Of a DNA stretch of 64,000 bases, positions 9,064 through 42,669 are shown in pieces. A program made the translations under genes and the position numbers. Each line of letters opens with the position of its first letter. Position 1 is the first letter of the stretch. This DNA is from a virus. Under the pieces are notes generated by a model that was not told the DNA's origin, did not search any database, and was given only the letters and a program-made list of their open reading frames with translations. The stretch spans positions 248,001 through 312,000 of IMG/VR virus record IMGVR_UViG_3300010403_000705. The stretch is one strand, 5' to 3'.

Positions 9064-9132
9064 GGCGTGGTAGAAAACCATAACCCATCCGCAAACTTCA
9101 GACATTATGTAGTTGGTGTGAGGTCAATCAAG

Positions 9133-11301
9133 ATGAAGAATCAGCCGCTGCCGATCGATGCCTTCTTGCCTGTTATTCTCGAAAGCGTTTCTTCTAATCC
9201 AGTCACGATCATTGTTGCCGAAACTGGCGCTGGGAAAAGCACGCGGGTTCCGCGTGCCTTGCTGGAAGCTGGCAAAAAAGTAGTGGTCACCCAACCGCGT
9301 CGTCTGGCTGCCGAATTGGTGGCTGAAAGAGTGGCGGCAGAGCACGGGTCTCCCATCGGTTCTTCTGTGGGATACAGGTTGGGCGGCGGGGTGCGAGTTG
9401 ATAACTCCAAGACTCGATGTTTGTTCATCACAGAGGGTCTGGCTCTGGTGCGTGAGCTGATGTCTTCTCAGGACTCCCATCACTCCTATGATGTGCTGGT
9501 GCTCGACGAAGTGCACGAATGGCACGAAGACATGGAGATTCTGGTTGCCTGGTGCCGGCGCGCTCTGGCAAGCAATGCGAAGTTTCGGTTGGTGCTGATG
9601 AGTGCCACCCTGGAAGCGCACAAGCTTTCTGAATACTTCGACGGAGCACCCATCATCAATGTTCCTGGTCGTATTTTTCCCGTGACGGTACAGGAACCCG
9701 AGGCGATGATTGAGGGCGATCAGAACCTGTGGAATCCCATCGTGCGCGACGTGACGCGATTGGTACAGCAAGGACGCAATGTCTTGGTCTTCGTTCCCGG
9801 CAAGCCCGAGATCTCTCAAGTCTGTGAAATGCTCAAGTTTACTGGGGCGAACGTTTTCCCTCTGCACGGCGAATTGGATAAAACAGAACGGCAGAAGTGT
9901 TTTGCCAGCTACTCCCATCCCAAGGTGATCGTCTCGACCAACGTATCACAGACTAGCATCACCATCGATGATATTGATGCAGTGGTGGATTCCGGTCTGG
10001 AGCGACGGGTGGAAGTGGTCAATGGTGTAGAGGGTCTGCGGCTGCGGTTGATCTCCAAAGCAGATTCTGCCCAGCGCCGCGGGCGCGCCGGTCGTTGTCG
10101 GGCAGGTATCTATATCGATCACAGCGATAACGCTTTTCGCACCATGCCCGGCGTGGGTTTTCGAGAAGAGTTTCCCATCCCCGAGATCTCTCGCGTCTTG
10201 CTTGACCGTGCGGTTCTTCGTCTGGCAATGGCGGATCTGGATCTGGAAGCTCTGGATCTGTTTCATGGTGTTTCTACATCTGAGGTGCATCTTGCCAAGG
10301 AAGTGCTTCGTGCGCTGGGTTGCCTGGGTGAGGGAATCCAGGTCACAGAGATTGGGCGACGCGTCTATCAGCTTCCCATCGGCGTTCGCTCTGCGCGGAT
10401 GCTGATAGAGGCTGAGAAGCGAGGATGCCTGAGTGAGGTGATGACCATTGCCGCCATCATCGAAAGCGGCGGAATCGTTGACAATAAAAACATCAACGAA
10501 GCAACTGGCATTCCCATCTGGCGCAATTTGGGCAGTGATAGCACCAGCGATCATCTGACCATGCTGAGAATCTTTCAGCATGCCACGGCAGGAAAGACCC
10601 CGTGGCGACAGCTTGGTTTGCACGGCAAAGGAATGTCGCAAGCCATAGAGACGCGCAAGGCATTGGAGTCCGCCAGCAAGAGAATCCTTGCCAGCGATTC
10701 CCATCGCAAAGGTACAACGGAAGATATCATTAAGAGCGTTTTGAGCGGCTTGGTTGATCAATTCCGAGCACGAACCACCAATCGTTGGGGAGAGTACACC
10801 TACGGCACTGACTGCCGGAAGCTCGGACAGACCTCCAGCGTTGTTGCCAGCGCCCATCAGTTTGTGGTAGGCATGCCTTTTGATATCTCTACCAAGAAGG
10901 GTGGGATCTTGGGTCTGCTGCAATTCGCTTCTGGAGTGAAGGTAGAGTGGGTGTTGGAGCTTGCTCCACATCTCTTCAAGGTACAGCGCGAAGCGCCGAA
11001 GTACGATCCGAATCTGGATCAGGTTGCTCGCACTACTACTGTTAAGTTCAGGGATCGCGTGGTGGCTAGCTTTGCCGATCCTTGCAATGAAGGAGATACT
11101 CTGGCGCAATATCTCTCGGAAGTTGTCAGTTTCAGCGATGCCTATGGCTATGGTTTTTATAGTTTGCCCGAGGCGTACCGCCGTGCTCTTCGAACTTTGC
11201 AGGGTCGTCCACGTCAGGTAGTACACACCCATCTCCGAAGTGTTTTGAGTGGGGTAGGTCGCCTGGCGAATGTAACGCCTTCTAGTTTGATGATGCAATG
11301 A
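9133..11301 (+). CDS. DEAH-box helicase, HrpB-like (722 aa)
   Basis: Superfamily 2 helicase: Walker A AETGAGKST at about 34, TQPRRLAAE (Ia), DEVHEWHEDME (DExH) at about 140, SATLEAHKLS (III), VSTNVSQTSITIDD (V) and QRRGRAGRCRAG (VI) near 320, then a ratchet/HA2-like region. This order matches bacterial HrpA/HrpB ATP-dependent RNA helicases; the length is shorter than HrpB (about 800). ATG at 9133 has GAGGT 9 nt upstream and is preferred to an in-frame GTG at 9067. Eleven CCCATC copies lie inside. Role in phage RNA handling is inferred. Confidence 0.9.
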   Translation: MKNQPLPIDAFLPVILESVSSNPVTIIVAETGAGKSTRVPRALLEAGKKVVVTQPRRLAAELVAERVAAEHGSPIGSSVGYRLGGGVRVDNSKTRCLFITEGLALVRELMSSQDSHHSYDVLVLDEVHEWHEDMEILVAWCRRALASNAKFRLVLMSATLEAHKLSEYFDGAPIINVPGRIFPVTVQEPEAMIEGDQNLWNPIVRDVTRLVQQGRNVLVFVPGKPEISQVCEMLKFTGANVFPLHGELDKTERQKCFASYSHPKVIVSTNVSQTSITIDDIDAVVDSGLERRVEVVNGVEGLRLRLISKADSAQRRGRAGRCRAGIYIDHSDNAFRTMPGVGFREEFPIPEISRVLLDRAVLRLAMADLDLEALDLFHGVSTSEVHLAKEVLRALGCLGEGIQVTEIGRRVYQLPIGVRSARMLIEAEKRGCLSEVMTIAAIIESGGIVDNKNINEATGIPIWRNLGSDSTSDHLTMLRIFQHATAGKTPWRQLGLHGKGMSQAIETRKALESASKRILASDSHRKGTTEDIIKSVLSGLVDQFRARTTNRWGEYTYGTDCRKLGQTSSVVASAHQFVVGMPFDISTKKGGILGLLQFASGVKVEWVLELAPHLFKVQREAPKYDPNLDQVARTTTVKFRDRVVASFADPCNEGDTLAQYLSEVVSFSDAYGYGFYSLPEAYRRALRTLQGRPRQVVHTHLRSVLSGVGRLANVTPSSLMMQ

Positions 11302-12097: not shown

Positions 12098-12824
12098 AGG
12101 ATTGTTGCCTATAAGCTCGTTACCCATCAGGGTCGCGAGCTTGTGGCATTGATCGGATAGCTGAGGCTTCCGGGATTCGATAGATTAGTAAGGGAGATCG
12201 TAGGTGGTGGTGTCCTACTGTTGCAATCATCAGCAAAACGTTGAAGGTGGCAATATAGGGAAGAATACATATCCTGACCGTTTGAATTACTCTATCGGAG
12301 TCGCTGTGGGTGAGGGCGTCTTAAATACTTACCCATCATGTGGGGACCCAATGTTAGGTTGGATCTGATGGATGCGTTGGTTGGGGCTGCCCATCAATTC
12401 TATCAAAAGGTTGGCTTAGAAGCAGCCATCCTCTAAGGAGTGCCGCCGTAGAAAGGAGCTGCCCGCCGAAAGGCTAACCCATCACTACCGCTATAAAGAG
12501 GTGATGGAGTACGGGGAGCAACGGTTAAAAAATACCTCCACAAATCAATAGATGAATCTAAAAGTAGTTTATTGAGGAATAGTGGTTGCGGATTCTGTGT
12601 AGCTTTGGCGTAACAGCACATTGATAGAGTTTTCTCTTAGGTTTTGGTATGTGTACCTTTTTAATCACTGCTAGGTATTATGCAACCTATATAAAAGCAT
12701 AACCCTGTTTGCTAAATTGCCTGTCTGACGCATTACGGGGTATAACTGACTGTGCCGACAACTACCCATCGTTAGAGTCCACCTTTGTCAATGAAGCGTG
12801 GTTAAGGGTAGAGCATTGACGCAA
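12098..12824 (+). other. Gene-free stretch before tRNA genes
   Basis: 727 nt without a convincing gene. A 32-codon ORF at 12338-12436 lacks a ribosome site. Just before the tRNA-Leu a 7-bp helix GTCAATG/CATTGAC (12787-12793 with 12814-12820) closes a 34-nt hairpin. Five CCCATC copies occur. It may carry structured RNA or leader sequence; nothing known recognised. Confidence 0.4.
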
Positions 12825-12912: not shown

Positions 12913-12937
12913 TGGGATTACTTTGTAATTCCCATCT

Positions 12938-13040
12938 GTCGAGCAGTGGCGGAAACGGATAGACGCTAAGGCAGTATGGCTGAGCTTAGTGATGATAAAC
13001 TATCACTAAGCATGCTGGTTCAAGTCCAGCCCTCGACACC
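12938..13040 (+). tRNA. tRNA-like sequence, anticodon arm not foldable
   Basis: Acceptor-like GTCGAG/CTCGAC, D arm GCG...CGC with GGATAGA, T arm GCTGG-TTCAAGT-CCAGC and a very long variable-type hairpin GCTTAGTGAT/ATCACTAAGC. Between the D arm and this hairpin I cannot form a 5-bp stem with a 7-nt loop, so no anticodon can be assigned. About 16 nt longer than a normal class II tRNA. Either a degenerate Leu/Ser-type tRNA or one with an insertion. CCCATC lies between it and the tRNA-Leu. Confidence 0.5.
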
Positions 13041-15041: not shown

Positions 15042-15097
15042 AAATATGACGATGTGAGGCGTGGGAACTGAAAGATAGTAGTCAGGCACAATGACAG

Positions 15098-15131
15098 GTC
15101 ATAAGGAAGAATTAAAATTCTTCCTTATGAC
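15098..15131 (+). terminator. Hairpin, probable terminator
   Basis: A 15-16 bp perfect stem GTCATAAGGAAGAAT with ATTCTTCCTTATGAC after the gene ending at 15041; no T-tract follows. Confidence 0.6.
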
Positions 15132-15247
15132 GCTTAGTGCCATGCGCTTATTCTGACCCTGTAATGACTACCATTGGAGCGCAGCGCCTTACATCACGAT
15201 TTAATCCCATCTTTTGAGATGGCTTGAGCAAGGGTTAAAGGTGACCT

Positions 15248-15493: not shown

Positions 15494-16669
15494 ACCTCAT
15501 CAAGCAATAAGCACCAAGAGATTGTCATGCCACATCAAAAAAGGATCCCAGGGATCCCATCGGATATATAAACCTATACGATACTTGCGAAATGCAGAAA
15601 GAAAAGGTTTAACATTATGTTCTTCACGTGATGTGAGCGCTAAACTCTGTCAATGGGCTTGGATTTAGCTTTATAGGTAGCTCTCAGTAAAAAGTGAGCT
15701 TAGGATACAAGCTACGTCTGGTAAGATTGACAGAGACTCTAAGAGGGCGGCGCTAACATAAAAAGCCCTGCTAGTTTGTATCACCCATCAAATTAGGAGA
15801 ATACCTAGGAGAATATCAGCCATCAATACGATGGCGCTAATCTCGGATTACCCTCTCACTTGGCGGCTGTAATTTGGGGGTTCGAATCCCTCTGTGCTTT
15901 AGGCATAGCTCAATCGGTAAGAGCAATCGCTTTTAAGCGATCATTACAGTGTACCTTGTGAGTAAGGCGAAACTATTAGCTCTCCTATCAAAGCTCCCAT
16001 CCAAACACAGGATAAATCAATCCAAGTGCAATTCCTGTTTCCTGTTTTTTTGGAACCGTAAAAACGGTATGATTTACTCCTGACATAATTGTACGCCCGA
16101 TTCACTAACTAGGGCTATAGATACCATAGGGATAACTTAACGCTCTCCCATCAGATCGTAGCGTTACACGGGATGCAAGAGGCTTGCTGGGCGGACAAGG
16201 ATCCATCCGCAATATTGAAGATGCTGAGCATGCCATATATCACCAGGGTTTCCGGCTCAATGGGTTTGGAAACACTTTGATAGATGCAGATCATGACTGA
16301 ATACTCATTCAATAAAACCACCTAACACTTGCTATAACACCCATCATATAAGGCGGGTTAGATAAAGCTGAGGAAACCGTTGGGAAGTTGAGTTTTGATC
16401 GAGACCTTATGATGATTGCGCCTCGCGCATGAGGGTTGGTAGGATACCCATCTATCTACCAAGGCAATGTAGATCAAGACAACCGATATACCACGTCTTG
16501 AAGAACGTGGATCGCCAACGGAGCATTAGGGCTACGCTCAGCGCCCGCCTAATGTTTAACTTGTGGTTAGTGTATAGTTAACAAGAGACCCTTGTATTGT
16601 ACCCATCAATCTTGTTGATTATGTACTGTTCACAAGCTCATTGAAAAGTTATCATATCGAGGTGATATC
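15494..16669 (+). other. 1.2-kb gene-free stretch with structured and tRNA-like RNA
   Basis: No convincing ORF. Contents seen: a GGATCC palindrome pair near 15,543; the permuted tRNA-like element at 15,867-15,949; hairpins TTGGTAG/CTACCAA (16436-16462, with CCCATC in its loop), CCACGT/ACGTGG (16491-16510) and CATTAGG/CCTAATG (16524-16554). Seven or so CCCATC copies. Likely a cluster of non-coding RNAs; none matches a family I know. Confidence 0.5.
15867..15949 (+). tRNA. Circularly permuted tRNA-like element
   Basis: Order is reversed: a T arm GGGGG-TTCGAAT-CCCTC (15876-15892) and acceptor-like TGTGCTT come first, then after one base AGGCATA, a D arm GCTC...GAGC (15908-15924) and an anticodon-like hairpin ATCGC/GCGAT (15926-15941). 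AGGCATA pairs with TGTGCTT over 7 bp (two G-U). The outer flanks CTGTAAT (15867) and ATTACAG (15943) are perfectly complementary and would act as a variable-arm stem. Both halves resemble the tRNA-Ile at 42541. Weak points: 6-nt anticodon loop, no spare U8/A9, no CCA. Confidence 0.5.
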
Positions 16670-42540: not shown

Positions 42541-42632
42541 GGGAGCATAGCTCAATGGTTAGAGCAACCGCCTTATAAGCGGTTTACCGGCTGATTACCG
42601 GAAGCGTGGGGGTTCAAGTCCCTCTGCTCCTA
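42541..42632 (+). tRNA. tRNA-Ile (TAT) with unusually long variable region
   Basis: Acceptor GGGAGCA/TGCTCCT, D arm GCTC...GAGC, anticodon stem ACCGC/GCGGT with loop CTTATAA (TAT), T arm GGGGG-TTCAAGT-CCCTC, discriminator A; CCA not encoded. The variable region is 24 nt (42584-42607) and holds CCGG...CCGG, whereas Ile tRNAs normally have about 5 nt. Decodes AUA. Confidence 0.8.
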
Positions 42633-42669
42633 CTAAGACCCATCGGCTTACATCTTTAGGTGAATAATT

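Follow-up and report, generated by a model that had tools for sequence, protein, structure and literature searches.

What kind of RNA is encoded by a compact set of tRNA arms that lies in the wrong order in a giant phage genome: a permuted tRNA, the remains of ordinary tRNA genes, or a tRNA mimic? The arms occupy positions 15867-15949 of the window, by which we mean the whole 64,000-nucleotide stretch that was analysed (record positions 248001-312000 of a 432,844-base phage record with about 40 tRNA matches). The locus sits in approximately 1.2 kb without a clear gene (15494-16669), and the only open reading frames crossing 15867-15949 are short ones, none of which makes a convincing gene over the site. 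When the sequence was re-read, the T arm, acceptor strands, D arm and anticodon-like hairpin each lay where the initial annotation had placed them, and in the same order. In the surroundings, a DEAD/DEAH-box helicase with an HA2_C domain, HrpA/HrpB-like, is encoded upstream of the region at 9067-11301; the non-coding stretches 15058-15160 and 16520-16650 are strongly structured (z -4.9 and -4.4), and 16005-16090 also folds well (z -3.2).

We folded the locus together with its flanks. The resulting model runs from 15836 to 15980, a segment that is most likely a YrlA-like tRNA mimic, a reading we consider probable. Its parts are as follows.

15836..15980, plus strand: putative whole RNA, outer stem to outer stem, in the minimum-energy fold of 15835-16000
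15836..15841, plus strand: outer stem, 5' strand GCTAAT, partner of ATTAGC at 15975-15980 (fold only)
15855..15859, plus strand: middle stem, 5' strand CTCAC, partner of GTGAG at 15958-15962 (pair probability 0.95-1.0)
15867..15873, plus strand: closing stem, 5' strand CTGTAAT, at the variable-arm position (7 Watson-Crick pairs; pair probability 0.79-1.0)
15876..15892, plus strand: T arm GGGGG-TTCGAAT-CCCTC (alignment to YrlA core models)
15893..15907, plus strand: capped acceptor hairpin TGTGCT-TTA-GGCATA (fold, pair probability 0.8-0.99; YrlA alignment)
within 15893..15907, plus strand: alternative acceptor of 4 bp, TGCT/GGCA, leaving UA free as U8/A9 (YrlA alignment)
15908..15924, plus strand: D arm GCTC-AATCGGTAA-GAGC (alignment to YrlA core models)
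15926..15941, plus strand: anticodon-like hairpin ATCGC-TTTTAA-GCGAT with a 6-nt loop (fold; similar to phage tRNA-Lys and to tRNA-Ile 42541)
15943..15949, plus strand: closing stem, 3' strand ATTACAG (chance test and pair probabilities)
15958..15962, plus strand: middle stem, 3' strand GTGAG (pair probabilities of the fold)
15975..15980, plus strand: outer stem, 3' strand ATTAGC (fold only)

For the 84-nt RNA the folding energy is -27.9 kcal/mol (z -3.7), a value equalled by only 1 of 200 shuffled sequences. Over 15835-15983, the closing stem, acceptor hairpin and middle stem have pair probabilities of 0.8-1.0, while those of the T arm, D arm and anticodon-like hairpin are about 0.5-0.66. The flanks CTGTAAT and ATTACAG had been described as perfect complements at the variable-arm position, and so they are: lying no more than 3 nt from the core, they form 7 Watson-Crick pairs, a number that random window flanks reach in 0.1% of trials (0.7% if the stem is counted as 8 pairs including a G-U). 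Pairing of the whole flank has p 0.0065 against dinucleotide shuffles and p 0.057 against random segments, and we regard the statistical support for closing stem and flank pairing as moderate. The acceptor required revision, as the 7 bp with a 1-nt loop proposed initially is impossible for an unbroken strand; the fold instead has 6 bp and a UUA loop. The anticodon loop does have 6 nt as annotated, whereas U8 and A9, thought to be missing, are kept in the 4-bp acceptor variant.

Besides the tRNA genes elsewhere, the best Rfam match in the window is to YrlA (RF02553), found by cmscan at 28.3 bits (E 9.5e-5 in the genome) and spanning the T arm, acceptor and D arm of this RNA; the score falls below the Rfam gathering score of 69, as do those of the Y RNAs adjoining Ro60 in relatives. 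The Rfam structure of YrlA, as seen on a Gordonia phage match, consists of a T arm, a capped acceptor and a D arm within a closing stem. This arm order is identical to that of the window RNA. YrlA is thus itself built as a tRNA mimic with permuted arms, so that the topology first noticed here is a known one. Nor are RNAs of this kind new to phages, where the initial annotation knew of no permuted tRNAs: phages reported to carry YrlA have been mentioned (PMC7765460). In the window RNA, too, a closing stem surrounds the T arm-acceptor-D arm core. A covariance model that we built from 25 other YrlA-like cores, with this RNA left out, aligned to it over the full model length at 48 bits (E 8.7e-13), and the helices of that model covary strongly (score 0.654, compared to 0.147 when shuffled). 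The same model gives abutting ordinary tRNAs of other phages up to 49 bits; since its score therefore cannot separate YrlA from abutting tRNAs, gap length and flanks were used for this purpose. By these measures the window RNA differs from abutting tRNAs in having a 16-nt gap, no outer tRNA halves and a closing stem.

We also searched viral contigs for a T-arm consensus separated by 9-17 nt from a D-arm consensus, a gap too short for intact abutting tRNAs. The scan yielded 119 loci, 60 of them able to form an acceptor hairpin and 59 not. Ro60 was encoded in the same fetched locus (within about 15 kb) for 22 of the 60 loci with the hairpin and for 0 of the 59 without it (Fisher p 4e-8). Loci whose gaps were all 18-19 nt served as a control; they are a mixture in which abutting tRNAs occur alongside YrlA hairpins of greater length, and Ro60 was present in 16 of 98.

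The phage itself encodes both Ro60 and RtcB, a point in common with YrlA, and their presence, the match to the YrlA core and the arm anatomy are all direct observations. Ro60 lies at approximately 395.1-396.7 kb of the record (Pfam vWA_Ro60 6e-18, TROVE 6e-6; PDB Rsr 2nvo 1.5e-13) and RtcB at 363250-364554, both outside the window. Relatives of this Ro60 are found in Myxococcus phage Mx1 (47%) and in large viral contigs (63-81%), and TROVE proteins of jumbo phages have already been published (PMC7824862). A YrlA gene is usually near Ro60, whereas about 131 kb separate the window RNA from the phage's Ro60. YrlA and the window RNA also differ behind the D arm, where the Rfam model of YrlA proceeds directly to the closing stem and the window RNA keeps an anticodon-like hairpin in between. 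This extra hairpin has a precedent in L023 and L338, two RNAs of Ro60 phages. In the predicted fold of L023, which adjoins Ro60, a closing stem encloses the T arm, the acceptor, the D arm and then a hairpin that directly precedes the 3' strand of the stem, the same topology as here; L338, from a Ro60 phage, likewise has a hairpin after the D arm. The window RNA is unusual in combining a YrlA core with an anticodon-like arm while lacking a recognisable Ro60 site.

A related record, G001, has features in common with the window. Over window positions 1-64000 the plus strand has 183 copies of the hexamer CCCATC and the minus strand has 3; the copies are densest in 1-32000 and lie in both genic and intergenic sequence. 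The matching region of G001 has the same strand bias, with 133 copies against 3 in one 20-kb stretch and 55 against 0 in another. An element at 12191-12275 has a counterpart at 425983-426070 of G001, in the vicinity of that record's Ro60; its hairpin carries a compensatory change (GTAGG/CCTAC here, GTAAG/CTTAC in G001), and the element also contains GCAATATAGGGAAGAATACATATCC, with the order of hairpin and GCAATATAGGGAAGAATACATATCC swapped between the two phages.

The main rival to the YrlA-like mimic is a decayed remnant, either of two abutting tRNA genes or of a tandemly copied gene like tRNA-Ile 42541, that has lost its outer halves; what is left would be the T arm and 3' acceptor strand of one tRNA, followed by the 5' acceptor strand, D arm and anticodon arm that belonged to its neighbour. 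We consider this possible but rather doubtful. Phage tRNAs that abut at 0-1 nt spacing do exist and yield the same arm order, and the initial annotation's claim that both halves match the intact tRNA-Ile at 42541, which has a long variable arm, holds on comparison. The 6-nt anticodon loop and shortened 5' acceptor would likewise suit a decaying gene. On the other hand, intact abutting tRNAs could not have so short a gap, and yet the strands within it form a capped hairpin. Each arm is present in a single copy, and the flanks are perfectly complementary just where the variable arm would be, which chance would produce in 0.1-0.7% of cases, with further stems beyond. An ordinary intact abutting pair was rejected: measured from the CC of the T stem to TAGC, the gap is 16 nt where at least 18 are needed, and no tRNA is called on either outer side. 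The remnant stays the main rival because no ortholog was found in close relatives. Searches by DNA in phages, plasmids and a 446 kb relative gave nothing convincing, and neither did searches by model in 17 records or by patterns in viral contigs; five new viral loci from the pattern search proved, when folded, to be abutting tRNAs.

Several tRNA-like sequences elsewhere in the window depart from the ordinary form. The tRNA-Ile(UAU) at 42541-42633 has a long variable arm, CCGG-CTGATTA-CCGG, which is unusual for an isoleucine tRNA. At 12936-13037 a tRNA-like sequence (z -3.4) combines a T arm, a D arm, a variable arm of at least 10 bp and a damaged anticodon arm, with no ARAGORN call and no match at the Rfam cut-off. 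Finally, 49027-49099 matches the Rfam tRNA model (41 bits) but was missed by ARAGORN; its anticodon loop is odd, and 2 extra nt precede its D arm.

Could the window RNA instead be a true Y RNA, with a diverged stem as its binding site for the phage's Ro60? The genome encodes Ro60 and canonical Y RNAs, which speaks for this reading. Short Y RNAs occur in the genomes of its Ro60 relatives, many amid tRNA genes and often several per genome, and the motif GAATGC...TTACAT...TTGTC is near-invariant across 19 short Y RNAs of this Ro60 clade. A Ro60-motif model, trained partly on the phage's own two copies, finds these canonical Y RNAs at 403209-403280 (70 bits) and 403447-403510 (59 bits), both in a tRNA cluster 6-7 kb downstream of Ro60 and outside the window. 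The window RNA has the YrlA core, and its GGATTACC and CCTTGT bear a faint likeness to GGATTACAT and CTTGTC. However, GAATGC, TTACAT and TTGTC were not found in it, and the dedicated model detects no Ro60-binding motif at the site, its best score being 3 bits with filters off. A canonical Y RNA is accordingly rejected. In lacking this motif the RNA differs from YrlA, which is why we describe it as YrlA-like without classing it among the Y RNAs. A Y RNA with a diverged stem is in our view unlikely; as it would be a special case of the YrlA-like mimic, our confidences in the competing readings partly overlap.

A further known system has the same order of arms. Burroughs and Aravind reportedly described, in 2016, a Band-7-associated tRNA-like molecule of bacteria, in which a T arm, a short acceptor, a D arm and an anticodon arm follow one another as in the window RNA. 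Kinship with these RNAs, which precede bacterial Band-7/SPFH (slipin) genes and keep the anticodon arm, is in our judgement improbable. A search of bacterial sequences for a T arm separated by a short gap from a D arm, with an anticodon arm after it, gave 115 loci. In 63 of them a slipin open reading frame lies close by in the same orientation, usually 0-470 nt downstream, and several have UUU loops like that of the window RNA. The anticodon triplets vary among the permuted-pattern bacterial loci (L389-L506), with CAT, GTT, TTT and GAT the commonest, and the loop CTTTTAA of tRNA-Lys occurs in three bacterial loci that have no overlapping tRNA call. The 5' tRNA half of the window RNA also matches phage tRNA-Lys, at 87-92% over 36 nt. 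Against the kinship, the D half overlaps an ordinary tRNA call in many of the scanned loci, and the 5' motif GCRGTGC..GTATGC/T, seen in five of these bacterial RNAs, is absent from the window RNA. The phage record also has no Band-7 gene (PF01145), and with no slipin gene in the genome, downstream or elsewhere, we rejected membership in that family.

The initial reading is right in that the RNA is tRNA-like, has its arms in circularly permuted order and is closed by a stem. A permuted or two-piece tRNA working in translation is not supported; for this the RNA would have to be cut in the acceptor loop and receive CCA while the variable-arm stem held the pieces together. All four arms and that stem are indeed present. 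In the permuted tRNA genes of algae and archaea the 3' half likewise precedes the 5' half, and an intervening stretch allows circularisation and cutting. In contrast, the window RNA has 1-3 nt between its acceptor strands, which leaves no room for cleavage and CCA addition; CCA is not encoded, and core tRNA features are damaged, with an acceptor of 4-6 bp formed as a hairpin and a 6-nt anticodon loop. ARAGORN makes no call at the site and the Rfam tRNA model reaches only 18.7 bits. Geometry, loop size and the missing tRNA call together rule this out as the likeliest reading, and we give it very little credence. Two-piece tmRNA, which resembles the window RNA in having its ends away from the acceptor and being held together by pairing, was rejected for want of a usable model match: tmRNA models give no gathering-level match and only a 10.5-bit, 17-nt T-arm fragment, and tmRNA_permuted is not among the matches listed.

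How might a YrlA-like mimic act in this phage? If the RNA is transcribed and folds as predicted, the T arm, hairpin-capped acceptor stem and D arm would stack like the top of a tRNA; the D arm would be followed by the anticodon-like hairpin, and a long closing stem would take the place of the variable arm. With its acceptor capped, such an RNA could not be charged or act as a tRNA on the ribosome. The uncut RNA may instead be mistaken for a tRNA by tRNA-binding proteins or tRNA-cutting enzymes, and so serve as a decoy (bait) or tether; YrlA Y RNAs share the topology and need not be cut to work, and a bait role follows the proposal made for YrlA (PMC7790460). The phage that carries this putative decoy also encodes Ro60 and RtcB, besides its two canonical Y RNAs and about 40 tRNAs. 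More speculatively, it may be a free-standing phage tRNA decoy that dropped the Ro60-binding stem of YrlA and kept or regained a Lys/Ile-type anticodon arm, as bait for host anti-phage anticodon nucleases.

Why Y RNAs mimic tRNAs is an open question in the field. In a phage RNA that has the tRNA-like domain and an anticodon-like loop but lacks a recognisable Ro60 site, the mimicry would be set apart from tethering to Ro60, and the YrlA proposal could then be tested in infected cells.
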